Of a stretch of 64,000 nt of DNA, positions 4,967 to 36,975 are shown piece after piece. A program made the position numbers and the translations under genes. Origin of the DNA: Isoetes taiwanensis (Eukaryota; Streptophyta; Lycopodiopsida; Isoetales; Isoetaceae); contig JAJEKV010000110.1 in NCBI GenBank assembly GCA_021234155.1, positions 1,392,338 to 1,456,337 on the forward strand, read 5' to 3'. Positions within the stretch are counted from its first letter, which is position 1. Each line of letters begins with the position of its first letter. The notes under the pieces are model-generated. The model did not search any database and had not been told where the DNA came from. It saw nothing but the letters and a program-made list of their open reading frames with translations.

Positions 4967-5428
4967 CCTAATCATTTTGGGATACGTGTATACAAGATGA
5001 CACTTCTCAGGTGTGTGAGGTTATACGCATGCTTTGATATGGATATGATGTGCTAGATCCTCCAGGTTGCTTAAGGCAATGAATCTTTGTGCAAAATTAT
5101 GCAAAAAGGCATTAATTATATTAGGATATCTAAAGCAAAATAAAGTAGTTGCACTCAGATCTGAATATCTCGAGCTATCTTGACCTTTTTCAAATGATTT
5201 TTGGCAGAAAAACCAAAGAAACGTTGTGATGAGATGTAGGAAAATGCTTGGCTCAATTTGGATCTGGGATGTCTGAGAAAATTGGGTTCAAATTTGGAAG
5301 AAAATTTGGCCAGTGCACTTCCCTGAGACAAAACAATATCTGCACACTAAAATAATCATATCTCGAGTTTTATTGAATCTTTTTGCATGATATTTTTGAG
5401 ATGACTATCAGAAAAAAATTGTAGGAAC
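4967..5428. other. Intergenic, no gene recognised
   Basis: AT-rich sequence with no convincing open frame, tRNA or element end. It may hold upstream exons or the promoter of the Ulp1-like locus that follows, but nothing marks them. Confidence 0.4.
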
Positions 5429-6539
5429 ATGTGGGAAAAAAACCAGCTGAATATAAGGGTTCTGCCAACCAGCCGATATAAGGGTTCTGCCAACCAGCTA
5501 AACACTATGATATGTCCAAATAGTTTTGCTCCAGACAGATTGGATTCCAATTTCCTTTTGGAGCAACTCAAACCATGGCTGGAAGGACTTCTAGCTGCAG
5601 AAAATGTGCCTGCTTATGTGAAGGAAAATCAAATGTGGAACATGTGGAATTCTGAAGAGTGGCGCAACTGCATGAAAATACTCGACAAGTATTTTCATAA
5701 ACGAAACCCTTTGAAAATCAATATAAGTAAATTTTTTTCTATGATATGTGTTAAAATATTTGAATGGATTGTGAGCAAATGTTCTCGTGTGTGTTTAGCT
5801 AGAGATGATAGAGCTTCGGCAGTCTTTGTCTATCTAAAGCCACATACACATTTGGAAGTGGTGTTGAATGGAACTAAAACTATCGTGATTAGCTCCACCG
5901 ACATCAAAATTTTGGAAGTTGATACTCAGTGGTTCAATGATCAATTGATCCTCCTCTTCTCAAGGTGATACTTTCATTTGATTTGTGATCATCCGGATTG
6001 TGCCATCATATGCATATGTTTGCAGATGCATGGAATACTACTTGATGCTCCAAGGAATGAGCCATCCCTTTCATTTCTTTGACCCTCTTTTTCACTCGAC
6101 ATTGTCCAAGAACACAAATAGTTACAAAACAATAAGGAAACGTGTGAATCTGGATAAGTGCTAGTACATGTTTGTGCCTGCTTGTGATGGACATCATTGG
6201 ACCTGTTTTCTGATCGTAAGCCGCGCGTGTCTCGCACAGAGATATAAACCAGGAATATATCACTTTGATAGCATGGGCTTGCATGGCAGAAGCAGACATA
6301 TTGAGAGGTTAGTGCTTGCTCATTGCATTTTGTTGTTGTCACACAATGACAACAAACTTTGAATGTAGGTTCCTGGAATTGCTTGGACACAATAATTTCA
6401 GCTTTACAACATCAGATGTTATGAAAATTTCCAGAATGCCTCTTCAAATCGATGTCATTCATGTGGCCCTGCCGTATGTTCGTTTCTGCTAAAATTTGTG
6501 AGGGGGGTACTTGAAAGGAGTGAATATATTGTTGCCTAA
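5429..6539 (+). pseudogene. Ulp1/C48-type (SUMO protease-like) cysteine peptidase, disrupted
   Basis: Three exons can be joined in phase: 5429-5964, 6026-6307 and 6369 onward, with introns of 61 bases (GT 5965, AG 6025) and 61 bases (GT 6308, AG 6368). The end of exon 1 reads VDTQWFNDQLI, the start of the Ulp1 fold (family pattern W-L-N-D). Exon 2 has HHW (His codon 6195-6197) and HFDSMG (Asp codon 6267-6269). Exon 3 has MPLQ, then after a one-base frame change CGPAVCSFLLKF with the presumed catalytic Cys at 6462-6464. Breaks: an in-frame TAG at 6162-6164, the frame change near 6450, and loss of the Asp that normally precedes the Cys. A 25-bp tandem duplication lies in exon 1 (about 5453-5498). 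C48 peptidases cleave SUMO-like modifiers; here activity is unlikely. The start is uncertain and upstream exons may be missing. No flanking inverted repeats were seen, so whether it is host- or transposon-derived is open. Confidence 0.7.
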
Positions 6540-31243: not shown

Positions 31244-31860
31244 GGGGTGAAAATATTCTTACCCTGGTTTTGGTGATTCCATCGCGGTGAATGCACTCCC
31301 GCGGAATCACAGACCCTTCGGGAACGGGATCCGTTCCAGAGGCCGCGTTTTCCGTACCTGACAGTCAGGTGTACTCTCTGATGGATCGCAGCCGTCCGTC
31401 TGCAGGGTGCATCGTGGCCGTCCGTTTTATACCTCCCCTGCGGAATCACAACGGGTGGATTCCACGGGAGGGAATACTGTCGACGATATCCCGCCAGGCA
31501 GAATCACCACGTGAACTATTCCGCCGGGCGGAATCACCGATTTGCAATTCGGCCAGACGGAATCACCACGGGTGAATTCCGTCCGGCGGAATCACCAATA
31601 GTAAATTCTGTCCGGCGGAATCACCAAAATATAAATTTCGTCCGGCGGAATAACCAAAATATAATTTCGTCCGGTGGAATCACAAAAATACAATTCCTCC
31701 TGGCGGAATCACCAAAATACAATTCCTCCCAGCAGAATCACCAAAATACAATTCCGCCCGGCGGAATCATCGCAATGTAATTCCTTCCGGCGGAATCACC
31801 ATATCGTGAATCAACCGGATGGAATCACTGCCACTGAAAGATGCATCCATGCCACGTCGG
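31244..31860. repeat. Left terminal inverted repeat with palindromic-unit array
   Basis: The first ~200 bp is the unique inverted end. From about 31440 to 31830 about a dozen units of roughly 29-30 bp follow, each centred on tccggcggaatcaccaaaat or a variant. The unit core (GATTCCGTCC / GGCGGAATC) is itself palindromic. Units vary at several positions, so the array is not freshly amplified. Confidence 0.88.
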
Positions 31861-31882
31861 CATGGGATATCCGTCGCTATTT

Positions 31883-31890
31883 TATATAAA
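31883..31890 (+). promoter_or_regulatory. TATA box at the inner edge of the left TIR
   Basis: The sequence tatataaa lies just inside the array and about 300 bases before the chosen start codon of the Ulp1-type gene. The 5' leader after it is pyrimidine-rich (ctttctctctctgtg, about 32087-32101). As in MuDR, transcription would start from the TIR. Confidence 0.5.
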
Positions 31891-32193
31891 AAGCCTATTT
31901 AAATTCAGGGCCAAGCTTTCGCAACTTTTGAATTCAATGCTGGACGCCGGCCATTATTAGCCGTACACTGCTATCTGACAAGGGGAATGATTGCAGAGTC
32001 ATTACCATATCACCGCATGCCACGTCAACCCGTAAAGGATAGTGATCATATCCGAAAGAATCACAACCGTTAGCGCCAAAAAATCCCTTTCTCTCTCTGT
32101 GTTTTACCAGAATTCTACCTCAGAGCTTCATTCCGGCGCCTCCGCTCCTCCCGCTCGAATTCTTGTCCCTTTCTTATCGCAACTCTCTGTTCA

Positions 32194-34529
32194 GATGGAT
32201 CAAAGCCGAGAAACATCAGTTAATGAGAACTTCCAGACAGAATCTTCTGCTAACTCGGCTTTCATCTTCCCTGTCAATAATCCCTTGCCGGAAGAACTGG
32301 TCGATTCAGAGGTGGACTCCCCTCCTAAATTTCTTCCAGGTTTTGGGCCAGTTGGAGGCGCAGGTCCCATGGCGGATCTTCTATCTGTGGAGGCTAAGGT
32401 TATTACTCGAGCAGCCGACTTATTCCCCGGTTTTTGGGGGGAGCCCTCAGTATCCCCGAGGTCTGTTCCGACAGCAGGTAAAGAAAGGCTGATTGCAAGG
32501 ATTTCTTCCCGGCAGCAGGTAAAGAAAAGGCTGATTGCAAGGATTCAGAAGAAAAAGTTGATTGCAAGGAGCCTGAAATAGATTTCGGGGAGGATGCCGT
32601 GGAGAATCCTCCTCGGGAAAATGCCAAATACATGGATGATGAAATCCCAAACTGGAAATTGGATCGGGGAGATGGCCGGTGGTATTGTTTATTCGGTGGG
32701 TGCAGCAGTAGTTACACGAAAAAATGGGATCTGGAGATCCACAGGCTCGCTAAGCATTCCATGACCAATGATTACAAGCTGCCAGCACTCGCCAGAGGCA
32801 ACTGCTCCAGAAATGAGCAGGAGGAAGAGGAACTTTGAATTGGTCAAGCTGGAGCGGAGCGCGGATGAAGATTATCTTTGGCAGCATAATCTTAGGCGAA
32901 TTTTGGTGAGGGCCAAGCGAAGGGCCGAAGCTATGGCAGATGAGCAGATTGAGCACGGACTTCTTAATCCGGCTATGAGGTCTGCGTGGGTCAATCAACA
33001 GATGGAGATAAGGCGGACGGTAGAGGAAACTCTGGAGGAGCAGAAGAGGGAAGCAATTAGAAAAAAGATCGCCAGCAGTTTTGGTTTGACAATTGAAGAG
33101 ATGAGGGCCGAGATTTCTTTCTCCAGAGAGCAAGGTCAGGTAGAGAATGATGATTTCAGTAAGGAATTGGCACAGGCAGACAGAGAGTTGGCATCCCCAC
33201 TCCCAGGAAAGTGAGCAAGCTCCCACTTAGGAGCTCGCCGAGAACTCCAAGGAAGAAGAGAGGGGCAAAAAAAAACAGAGGACTGCATAGCCCCTAACCA
33301 CATAGTGTTTGAAACCTCCAGCTATATTCAGGGTTTGCGTGAGGCAATTCAATCAGCAGGTCTCCCCGACCCCAGAGCAAAATCCGAAGAGGAGGGCACT
33401 TTAATTGAGATCCCCATGATGCATAGGCTGGAAGCTAACTTTTTTAATTCTGTGTTTTCTTATCGATCAGGTCTTATACATAGGAGGTGGACCTGTAACT
33501 TCACATTCAAATACCCACTGACACTATGCAGCACAGCCATTCGGGTGGGCAAGAAATCATCAGCAGCAGAATTTCGCGTGTATGGCAACTTCGCCCAAGA
33601 TTTCATGACAGTTCCCGGTCCTGGAGATGATGTGGATTACAGAATCAATGAAGAGTGTGTCGGTGCCTATCTCCTGTAAGTCACGGGTATAAGCACTACC
33701 CAAGCATTGCAAACTTTGATTCGCTGACTATATTGCTCTCTGCAGGGCCTTGATACATCCCAGCATGTTTTCGTGCATCCCGCGGCCTTTGGCCTATTTT
33801 TGCAGAACAGTTTGGAAGGTCAATCAGGTGCATATGATATGTTTGCTAAATTAATCCCACTGAAACCCTTCATCAGGCAGAATTGGCGGATACAGAACGT
33901 CGGGTTCTATTACTTCCCAGTCATGAGCAGGTAAAGAATCCGTTTTAAATCCATTCATGGGCAATTGAACCTAAAATTCGGTTTTGCAATTGTTTGCAGC
34001 AATCACTGGAGCTTATTCATATTGGTTTCAGACCCCGAGGCATGCCGCAAGCTCCAGATACCTTGTCCAGTGTTGCTGCATTTGGATTCAATGTCGGGCA
34101 TGCACTCGAGCTTGCACTGTTTCGCCACTTTGTGAGTTTATTTCTGCCCCTTTCAGGTCCATTTTTTGTTTCCTCTGATTCCTTTGGCCACAAATTCGTG
34201 TCCAACATTATGAAGAGGTGGAATTTCGAGTTCTCGAGATTGCACAATGCCTCCTGCGTCTCTTTGAAGGTCCCTCAGCAAGAAAACACCCAGGATTGTG
34301 GTATTTACACGATTTGTTTCATCAAGATGTTCCTGCAAGATATGTGCAACACCAAAGACCAGTCTGTGGGTATTTTGTGTGTCCAATTTTATCTAATCTT
34401 ATTCGAACTTCCTACTAATTTTCCCGGTTGCAGGTTATGGATACTTCCAAATGGTTTGGGAGTGCTGAGATCGATCAGACGAGGTCCTCATTTGCAGTGA
34501 TGCTACAAAAATTGGGAGACTGTGTCTAG
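32194..34529 (+). CDS. Transposon-borne C2H2 zinc finger plus Ulp1/C48 cysteine protease (probably disrupted)
   Basis: Start ATG 32194 (MDQSRETSVNENF), then an acidic region and a C2H2 finger (C-x4-C-x12-H-x4-H; CLFGGCSSSYTKKWDLEIH, about 32686-32755). A charged helical segment follows (about 32815-33200). Introns that keep phase can be placed at 33211-33321, 33676-33810, 33931-33999, 34131-34217 (acceptor weak) and 34366-34433; stop TAG 34527-34529. The protease core reads FYYFPVMSSNHWSLFILVSD (His codon 34004-34006), LLHLDSMSG (Asp codon 34085-34087) and VPQQENTQDCGIYTICF (Gln, and Cys codon 34297-34299), so the whole His-Asp-Gln-Cys set of Ulp1 peptidases is kept. Two problems: a 41-bp tandem duplication (32478-32518) and a frame change at about 32770-32838 with no usable splice sites. 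Known family activity is SUMO precursor processing or deconjugation; in this element a role in transposition or host evasion is only a guess. Confidence 0.75.
32478..32559 (+). repeat. 41-bp tandem duplication bounded by AG|GT
   Basis: The segment 32478-32518 (gtaaagaaaggctgattgca...cag) is followed by a close second copy from 32519 (gtaaagaaaaggctgattgc...). Removing 32478-32518 restores the reading frame into the zinc-finger exon. The duplicated unit starts with GTAAAG and ends in CAG, so it looks like a minimal intron but is shorter than usual plant introns. Confidence 0.75.
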
Positions 34530-34925
34530 CAAAGAAGAAGCACATTCCACTTGCCCGAGGGAGATTGGAGTGAAACCGGTGGCCCTATGACCCGTTTAAG
34601 GATCAATGGCCCTTGATTTTTATTATGTGTGAATAGAACAACAAAAATCCCAGCATTGCTGGGTTTAATCTGAATTCCCGACTGTATCCGAATTTGAATT
34701 CATGTGAATTTGAATTTGAATGTATTTGAGCGCGAATTAGAATGTTTGAACTTCAAAATTGGAATATGTCGTAGATACCACCACAAAAAAAAAAAAAAAA
34801 AAAATCTGTACCTAATTATAATTTCTGGCCAACAATATGCCATATGGTCGAAAATGTAAGTTGGTGATTCCTTCCTGTGGTATCTCTAAAGTTGTCATCT
34901 TTTCGGTGGAATCACAAGATGGAAA
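34530..34925. repeat. Middle of the Mutator-like element: A-run and a third TIR-like patch
   Basis: After the Ulp1-type stop codon there is AT-rich 3' sequence with repeated gaatttgaattt-type motifs (34690-34730) and an A-run at about 34783-34804. At 34862-34940 the TIR-type motifs reappear (ggtgattcc, ggtggaatcac, attccatgtcgtggaat). This suggests an older nested end or internal rearrangement exactly where the transposase homology stops. Confidence 0.6.
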
Positions 34926-36109
34926 TTCCATGTCGTGGAATGTCTGCCGCCATCATAGCATGCCGCATCATAGCATCCTAAAAAGGAGCAACCAAACCTA
35001 TTCTCATTTGTCTTGTAAGTGGAGTCAAGGCATATAGCTCTATCCTTTCCAAATCTCACCATGGCATCCTTTTGAATGGGAGTCATGACCCCAAGTTGAA
35101 AGATGTCATCTTGCTCGTAGTGGAAGACACAATCTTGATGTTGTTGGGCCCACATATGGATGCTTGTTGCTTGGTCTTCATGCAACTTCCAAACAATTCG
35201 AGCCACCAATTTATCAATATTGTAGAATTCATGCATCTTTAACATGTCGTTCCTGGACAACCCATCCAAACCAACTAGCTCCTTCTTCAAGTTCACCCTC
35301 TCCTGGTGGATGTTCATCACCATTTTAGGTGTTATATATTGCACTAGCTTCTGTTTGATCCATTCTTTCTTTTAAGCTGTGAGCCATGGTGCTAGCCTAT
35401 ACCTCAACCCTTTCTCAATAGGTTGTGCTTTACCATGGCAGATTGCACCTTGCTGGTTCACATGATCCCATTTGTGGTAGGTAATTTGAGTGCAATTGGG
35501 AAGAAGATAGAGCTGTTTCAAAGTAAAATGACATTGACAACCCCTTCTAACACTCTCCCCCCTCTCAATCCTCTTCCTTCTTTGGCCTGGAGGGGGACGT
35601 TGATCCTCAACAACATAAGCGTTATCAGAATTGTCTTCTGGCCCAAAGACACACCAGTACCTTTGTTGCACAAGGAATGAATCAGACATGCTTTAAAATC
35701 CAAATGAATAATCATAAGCTAGGGAAAGGAAATGCACACCTCTTCAAAGTCAGATATGAACCTTTGCCCGGTTTGGATAGCTCTTTATTCCTTTGAGAGC
35801 TTCTTATGTAGAAACTGCATGGTGCCTCCCCATTTTTTTGCTCCCCGGCAATGAAATCACCAACCCATGAGGTGGAAATGTGACACACCCACACCAGTTG
35901 AGTACCCTTCCCTTGCGGTTCAGGACTCTGGTGCTCTAATATAACCCAGGGTAGTCGACTGTGATCAAAATGCCTTTCCGCAGGGTCTGTTTGCTAGATG
36001 CCTGCTTGCAGCTGTCACTAAAAATGTAATCAGAGCTTGCCCCGCTGCAAGGACATGGAAATCAGTTGTTCCAGGCACTAACCTCCTCAATCTTCTCGTC
36101 CAAATCCAT
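34926..36109 (-). pseudogene. MULE/FAR1-type transposase, truncated after the first catalytic Asp
   Basis: The - strand start is probably ATG 36109 (MDLDEKIEE followed by a GTTAGT donor). A later exon (35689 downward) has RYWCVFGPEDN, RRGCQCHFTLKQLYLLPN and HVNQQGAICHG, a GCM1/WRKY-type zinc-binding module seen in SWIM-family MULE transposases. After one in-frame TAA (about 35371) it continues KKEWIKQKLVQYITPKMVM, then VMTPIQKDAMVRFGKD and CLDSTYKTNENRF, which holds the first Asp of the DDE triad (D-x-TYKTN). Homology ends near 34945, where TIR-like sequence begins, so the rest of the DDE core and the SWIM finger are missing. It is transcribed inward from the right TIR, opposite to the Ulp1-type gene. 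As it stands it cannot be active. Confidence 0.8.
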
Positions 36110-36975
36110 GCCAAACTCCTCGCCGCTGTCGTCGAACAGAGGAAAGGCAGGTGATTCCAATGGAGGAACAGAGCAGGTGATTCCATCGGATGGTATGAAC
36201 AGCAGTAATGATATGGAGTCTCAATGTTGAGACGTGTCGAACATGCAACTGCATAGCTGCTTCCACTTGGGTGATTCCGCCGGCGGGAATCCCATCTGGG
36301 TGATTCCGTCGCGAGGAATCCCATCTGGGGTGATTCCGTTGGACGGAATCATATTGTGGTGATTCCATCGGATGGAATCAGATTGCAGTGATTCCGTCGG
36401 ATGGAATCTGATTGTGGTGATTCCGCTGGGCGGTATCAGGATCAGGTGATTCCATTGGAAGGAATCAGAATATGGTGATTCCGCCTGGCGGAAGTGGAAC
36501 GGGGTGATTCCGTCTGGCGGAATTACAAATTAGTGATTCTGTCCGGCGGAATTACAAGTTAGTGATTCTGTCCAGTGGAATTCTTCAGGTTGTGATTCTG
36601 TCCGGTGGAATTCTTTAGGTTGTGATTCCACCGGGCGGGATATCATCCACAACATTCCGTGCCGTGGAATCAGTGGCGGGTGATTCCATCTGGCGGAATG
36701 AAGGGAATGTGATTCCATCGCGTGGAATAATTATGTGGTGATTCCGTCCGGCGGTATTCTACCGTTGTGATTCTGTGGGGAAGTATAAAACGGACGGCCA
36801 GGATTCAACATGCAGACAAACGGATGCGATCCATCAGAAAATACACCTGTCTCTGTGTCACGTACGGAAAACGGGGCCTTCGAAATGGATCCCGTTCCCG
36901 GAGGGTCTGTGATTCCGCGGGAAAGTATTCACCGCGATGGAATCACCAAAACCAGGGTAAGAATATTTTCACCCC
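36110..36975. repeat. Right terminal inverted repeat with palindromic-unit array
   Basis: From about 36150 to 36780 there are some 18 units of the type ggtgattccgtcggatggaa, inverted relative to the left arm; from about 36760 to 36975 comes the unique end matching 31244-31450. The array is longer than on the left, so the arms have expanded or contracted independently. Confidence 0.88.

Follow-up and report, generated by a model that had tools for sequence, protein, structure and literature searches.

The window analysed in this study is a stretch of 64,000 nucleotides from contig JAJEKV010000110.1 of Isoetes taiwanensis. At positions 31244-36975 of the window lies a copy of a Mutator-like element (MULE) that has decayed and lost part of its interior; its features are listed in Table 1. 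Its outer ends (31244-31363 and 36856-36975) are inverted over 120 nt with 92% complementarity, the inversion extends inward (31363-31438 and 36777-36852) at 86%, and both arms carry arrays with units of about 29 bp. On the forward strand an Ulp1-type gene runs inward from the left arm, passing a C2H2 finger pattern before the Ulp1 exons, and the N-terminus of a transposase reads inward from the right arm on the reverse strand. Since the first Ulp1 exon is scattered over several frames and at least one stop codon each was found in the last Ulp1 segment and in the transposase remnant, neither gene is intact in this copy. The window element is an old deletion derivative, and the full-length members of its family have two convergent genes. 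In this MULE family the transposase gene and the Ulp1 gene form an old, constrained unit.

Relatives of the element were sought in the same genome (1.66 Gb). When the left end (31244-31450, 207 bp) was used as the query, 41 matches were obtained with the best 40 of 1098 candidates scored, including the two ends of the window element itself; a search of this kind had been proposed in an earlier sequence-only reading of the window. In total, 23 stretches were examined for the MULE family, 3 around plastid-type genes and 1 for a second C48 family. Copies were labelled A (including L001-L006, L011 and the window copy), B (L012 and L013) and D (including L014-L019), A and B being subfamilies. Full-length relatives are bounded by terminal inverted repeats (TIRs) and measure approximately 7.5-12 kb: 8.5-9.5 kb for the six A copies with both ends (L001-L006), about 12.1 kb (L012 with L024) and 11.1 kb (L013 with L025 and L026) for the two B copies as judged by their ends, and 7.5-7.9 kb for the three D copies with both ends (L014-L016). 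The both-end counts do not include L007, L017, L018 and L019. Long TIRs, a MULE feature, were present (509 bp at 98.6% in L014), and the TIRs of A and D are recognisably similar (GGGTGAAAATATCCTTACCCTGG vs GGCTCAAGATACTTCTACCCTGG). A scripted check of the 15 elements with both ends read found identical 9-bp target-site duplications in 11 (L002, L003, L004, L005, L012, L013, L014, L016, L021, L022 and L023), that of L012 with the left end read 2 bp shorter. L001 has a shared 9-mer placed 3 bp off its left end, and no 9-bp duplication was found at L006, L015 or the window copy (TAGGGCAGG vs CAGGGGCAT at the window copy). The shorter copies L021 (1.4 kb), L023 (0.49 kb) and L022 (5.1 kb) share these ends and are flanked by identical 9-bp duplications, which suggests that an element can be mobilised in trans if it has the ends.

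The two genes were found as neighbours well beyond the window. With window queries, for which the best 150 transposase hits and 135 Ulp1 places (150 listed less 15 at the same place) were compared, transposase-Ulp1 neighbours within 15 kb were convergent in 59 of 59 pairs, the window's own pair included. These pairs involve 59 transposase and 58 Ulp1 hits, one Ulp1 hit being paired with two transposases, and 22 of the 25 transposase hits closest to the window have an Ulp1 partner. With lineage-D queries (best 150 transposase hits and 141 Ulp1 places, 150 listed less 9), neighbours within the same distance were convergent in 50 of 51 pairs, made up of 49 transposase and 50 Ulp1 hits; the members of the single non-convergent pair lie 13.6 kb apart, and its Ulp1 hit has a closer convergent partner. 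Of the transposase hits of the D query, 16 among the best 25 had a partner, as had 31 among the best 50. The two sets overlap (a pair on C1072 is in both), and all these counts are lower bounds from the best candidates scored. The sequence-only reading had staked its case on other copies carrying both genes, and such copies are thus at hand.

Both proteins were recognised by Pfam. Peptidase_C48 matched one frame of the window copy (E=4e-7, 30.5 bits) and the joined exons of other copies (E=4.6e-11, 43.4 bits vs the curated cut-off of 20.7), and joined segments of other copies matched the MULE transposase domain PF10551 (E=2.4e-14, 54 bits vs a cut-off of 27.6), with SWIM at 19.3 bits, just below its cut-off of 19.6. 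No Pfam transposase, SWIM or finger family was matched by the separate window frames, and recognition came through the other copies; the window remnant gives no PF10551 match because it ends before most of the domain. All four Ulp1 residues, His, Asp, Gln and Cys, are held by the window copy. Where they could be aligned across 18 loci, His was kept in 14 of 14, Asp in 17 of 18, Gln in 15 of 17 and Cys in 14 of 15; the Ulp1 catalytic residues are thus largely kept across lineages. The transposase catalytic residues were kept in 15/16 (D), 11/13 (D) and 16/17 (E) aligned copies, its CxxH in 9/9 (Cys) and 11/11 (His), and the SWIM Cys and His residues in 13 to 16 of 16. The aligned finger residues were Cys 13/13, Cys 10/14, His 13/15 and His 14/15; the C2H2 pattern was seen in A, in B and in some members of D, and in the Pfam search no finger family was matched by the A copy L004. 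Against the PDB, the joined Ulp1 exons gave weak matches only, to SENP7, SENP8 and SENP5 (E 0.012 to 0.88). These results agree with the sequence-only reading on the inverted ends, the array-bearing arms, the full catalytic set of the left-arm gene and the right-arm remnant, which is the N-terminal part of a MULE transposase up to the first catalytic Asp, and the profile search that it suggested found both families. The pairing of a DDE/SWIM transposase with the Ulp1 gene, which it proposed to look for in intact copies, is seen for the DDE part, which faces Ulp1 in many copies, with SWIM short of the threshold as given above; its zinc-finger addition to the Ulp1 gene holds as a recurring pattern, with a Pfam score below the cut-off.

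The ratio of nonsynonymous to synonymous divergence (dN/dS) was calculated by segment, and the counts below are pairs used out of pairs possible, pairs with fewer than 30 shared codons or saturated differences having been dropped. Copies with broken frames stayed in the set and push the values up. Between A and B, the four transposase segments gave 0.14 (18/18), 0.17 (16/16), 0.17 (16/16) and 0.15 (16/16), and Ulp1 segments 1-6 gave 0.14 (16/18), 0.10 (18/18), 0.13 (16/18), 0.17 (8/18), 0.12 (8/18) and 0.13 (9/18). Constraint on the Ulp1 gene between these subfamilies matches that on the transposase, and the Ulp1 gene is under purifying selection. The trees of both proteins split A/B from D and contain the same D groups; L019 is placed differently within D between the two, and L011, labelled A, is nearer to B in the transposase tree, from which the window copy was left out for having too little sequence. 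The long shared history of the two genes suggests that the element needs the protease.

The arrays are built on 8-bp cores, for which expected counts were obtained from 50 first-order Markov resamplings. The A-type core (GTGATTCC/GGAATCAC) occurs 30 times in the window element against 0.4 expected. The seven A elements (L001-L006 and the window) have 25-49 A-type cores each (0.4-0.5 expected) and 0 of the D type, the partial B locus L012 has 24 and 0, respectively, and seven D loci, four of them partial, have 27-46 D-type cores (GTGATCCC/GGGATCAC) each (0.4-0.7 expected) and 1-4 of the A type. In 18 copies (L001-L007, L010-L019 and the window), with coding blocks delimited by the segment limits, 0 of 620 cores of a copy's own lineage type fell within the transposase and Ulp1 blocks; these blocks account for 28-39% of the sequence. 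Cores between the genes numbered 2-37 per copy in 18 of 18 copies, and the remaining ones lie outside the gene pair. Core direction is nearly uniform per arm in four A elements and mixed in three D elements. The A and B fingers have common helix letters and a common motif type, and in D both the fingers and the motif differ. This covariation rests on two lineages between which the transposase N-terminus differs too, and it does not tell which protein reads the motif.

Table 1. Features of the MULE copy in the window (window positions) and the open frame ORF3 in other copies (positions within each copy)
Feature	Position	Strand	Basis
Left TIR, outer part, begins GGGTGAAAATATTCTTACCCTGG	31244..31438	+	Complementarity and likeness to full-length copies
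Left-arm array, ~29-bp units, core GGAATCAC	31458..31830	+	Repeat comparison, also in full-length copies
Ulp1-type gene, first exon, ATG at 32195	32195..33676	+	Frames; segments U1 32804-33178, U2 33290-33676
C2H2 finger CLFGGC...HRLAKH	32686..32757	+	Read by eye in frame; pattern recurs in other copies
Ulp1 catalytic exons, segments U3-U6	33758..34613	+	Pfam, segment alignment
Ulp1 catalytic codons	His 34004, Asp 34085, Gln 34279, Cys 34297	+	Copy alignment
Between-gene motif array, remnant	34864..34945		Comparison with full-length copies
Internal deletion junction, ~3.8 kb relative to L003 (3859|7671)	34967..34977		Alignment to L003
Transposase N-terminal remnant, zinc-binding region to first catalytic Asp	34991..35692	-	Frames, genome matches
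Right-arm array, core GTGATTCC	36171..36790	-	Repeat comparison, also in full-length copies
Right TIR, outer part	36777..36975	-	Complementarity and full-length copies
ORF3	L004:4779-5234	-	Open frame
ORF3	L001:5090-5584	-	Open frame
ORF3	L012:6154-6600	-	Open frame
ORF3	L013:4328-4759	+	Open frame

Other features of the element were also recorded. The motif cluster between the window's genes was considered as a third arm or a nested element and rejected, because full-length copies hold the same cluster between their genes. In the window copy the third and fourth Ulp1 exons seem to join in frame, as judged by eye, only if approximately 25 nt are skipped (about 34131-34157); a gap of about 25 nt, very short for a plant intron, lies at the same place in other A copies, and in the D copy L014 about 64 nt separate the Ulp1 frames at the corresponding place, also by eye. 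A and B copies have an open frame, ORF3, between the transposase and Ulp1 genes, which was not accepted as a third gene. It lies on the Ulp1 strand in A and on the opposite strand in B, matched no Pfam family at E values up to 1 and nothing in D copies at E 1e-3, and gave dN/dS values of 0.43-0.53, that between A and B being 0.46 (16/16 pairs). In L003, tandem repeats with periods of 15-144 bp, unlike the arm motif, lie between the genes (5203-6019). Outside this family, 25 of the 52 listed genome matches to PF02902 have a 91-aa open frame, and this second C48 family (L027, C1055:4637000-4644500) may be another Ulp1-bearing mobile element. Contig C840 (34.6 kb) has an uninterrupted 475-aa rbcL frame and is a probable plastid contig (L009; C840:20428-30006); about 8 kb beyond rbcL it has a divergent 414-aa EF-Tu (tufA) frame with 418 bits vs a model cut-off of 522, and the long contigs C1037 and C1052 carry another rbcL frame and an EF-Tu match that scores higher. 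Plastid-encoded tufA is an algal trait that land-plant plastids have lost, and on inspection the rbcL frame of C840 looks like that of a streptophyte alga.

The family is probably best explained by a transposase that mobilises the element and a finger-Ulp1 isopeptidase, brought by the arrays, that keeps the family expressed and mobile. The transposase would move the element via its TIRs, and both genes would have their promoters in the arms. Encoded by the element itself, the finger-Ulp1 protein would act as an isopeptidase on proteins located on the element's DNA, stripping SUMO or a similar modifier either from silencing factors or from the transposase complex; SUMO is its putative target among the ubiquitin-like modifiers. 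By recruiting this protein, the motif arrays would let their own family stay expressed and mobile. As the motif layout resembles the VANDAL system of Arabidopsis, the finger-Ulp1 gene is a natural candidate for the motif reader, and the protease would be an element-encoded helper, possibly an anti-silencing factor reading the arrays like VANC in Arabidopsis. A more specific version by analogy with VANC, in which this MULE clade would have evolved a sequence-specific anti-silencing system of its own and the finger-Ulp1 protein would read lineage-specific arrays in non-coding element DNA and strip SUMO-type marks from silencing proteins there, with motif and protein codiverging as VANC and its targets do, is put forward tentatively and would not be our first expectation. 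Several observations weigh against the preferred explanation. No Ulp1 partner was detected for 91 of 150 transposase hits with window queries and 101 of 150 with D queries, partly because no more than the best candidates were listed and copies have decayed. The second Cys of the finger is altered in 4 of 14 aligned copies (L010 and the D copies L017, L018 and L019), and the finger of the D copy L015 scored 21.1 bits against zf-C2H2, below the cut-off of 25.2. In some other comparisons of dN/dS, Ulp1 looks less constrained than between A and B: 0.15-0.50 for Ulp1 vs 0.26-0.48 for the transposase within A, 0.12-0.66 vs 0.12-0.24 within D (the Ulp1 values 0.54, 0.56 and 0.66 come from 4, 6 and 3 pairs, respectively), 0.20-0.38 vs 0.14-0.26 between A/B and D, where dS is high (1.5-3), and 0.18-0.98 vs 0.08-0.59 for the single B-B pair. 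The arrays could also be bound by the transposase instead.

That last point belongs to an explanation which we regard as possible, if rather doubtful, namely that the Ulp1 protein has a direct part in transposition and might, for instance, take SUMO off the transposase or repair proteins, without binding the arrays, which would be transposase binding sites. The same pairing and constraint would fit it, the short copies L021 and L023 share the family's ends and 9-bp duplications and have transposed, so that the ends suffice in cis, and a role of Ulp1 and OTU in transposition or repair is proposed in discussion passages of PMC2836005; however, cores also lie between the 3' ends of the genes in every one of the 18 copies, where end-binding would be needless, and the protease gene bears its own finger pattern. 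It is very unlikely that the Ulp1 gene is a captured passenger, a transduplicated host gene fragment with no role in the element. Plant MULEs often capture genes, Ulp1 in grape MULEs is read as repeated transduplication in the relevant part of PMC2528002, and many transposase hits lack a detected partner, but the fixed convergent pairing in two distant lineages, the low dN/dS between subfamilies, the kept catalytic residues and the matching tree groups speak against a passenger. A chance junction of two unrelated repeats in the window, with which the missing 9-bp duplication would agree, is hardly credible: the arms are 92% alike, both match the arms of full-length copies and represent one TIR family seen at both ends of such elements, and the interior is collinear with the full-length L003 save for one large deletion. 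An origin of the arms from unrelated repeats was accordingly rejected, and the sequence-only reading withstood this challenge; recombination between two family members at the window site could still have occurred.

The preferred reading, a transposase with an array-recruited finger-Ulp1 helper, can be set beside several known systems. MuDR of maize has two convergent genes between long TIRs and 9-bp duplications. The convergent gene pair, the long TIRs and the 9-bp duplications of the present family are alike, whereas its second gene encodes a C48 protease, apparently in place of mudrB. The MuDR-like architecture proposed from the sequence stands for the gene pairs and TIRs, with an apparently different second gene. 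Ulp1-bearing MULEs of TIR and non-TIR types are known from Arabidopsis, melon, rice, maize, grape, hydra and lancelet, according to sections of PMC2528002 and PMC2836005, and MULEs with tandem TIRs are likewise on record in part of PMC3310237. In the KAONASHI elements of Arabidopsis (KI-MULEs with KIU genes), an Ulp1 (C48) gene lies in reverse to the transposase, as here (PMC2528002, in part); KI-MULEs are non-TIR, whereas the elements described here have long TIRs, a C2H2 finger and motif arrays. Passages of the same paper describe the Ulp1-MULE association in grape as scattered over unrelated families and found in both orientations; in I. taiwanensis it has one orientation and is an old pairing within one genome. 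Ginger1 is a transposon with an Ulp1 domain (PMC2836005, in part) but belongs to another transposase class, and there Ulp1 is part of the transposase, as its C-terminal domain. The fixed, constrained and old pairing found here in one genome may bear on why unrelated transposons carry Ulp1-type proteases. In sections of a 2026 review (PMC13317346), Ulp1 capture by non-TIR MULEs is placed in angiosperms, the precise function of the domain in these elements is called unknown, and some VANC genes are said to carry Ulp1. No Ulp1-MULE from charophytes was found in the listed titles and abstract openings of open-licence papers, and the terms peptidase, protease, C48, SUMO, accessory and charophy were absent from PMC6446971.

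The closest parallel to the arrays is offered by VANDAL elements, in which short, family-specific motifs are densely arrayed in non-coding DNA (PMC5735166, in part), as here. VANC proteins bind such motifs in non-coding VANDAL DNA, which leads to loss of methylation (parts of PMC5735166 and PMC10398659); in the present family the candidate reader is instead the finger-Ulp1 protein, the likeness being one of motif layout. The finger pattern and the lineage-specific arrays make an array-binding protein, and a chromatin effect of the protease, directly testable. The distinct MULE lineage suggested by the sequence-only reading is upheld insofar as long TIRs set the family apart from KI-MULEs, but Ulp1-MULEs were known already, and the architecture is not new in kind; what is new here is a MULE lineage that combines motif arrays with a finger-Ulp1 gene as its fixed partner.

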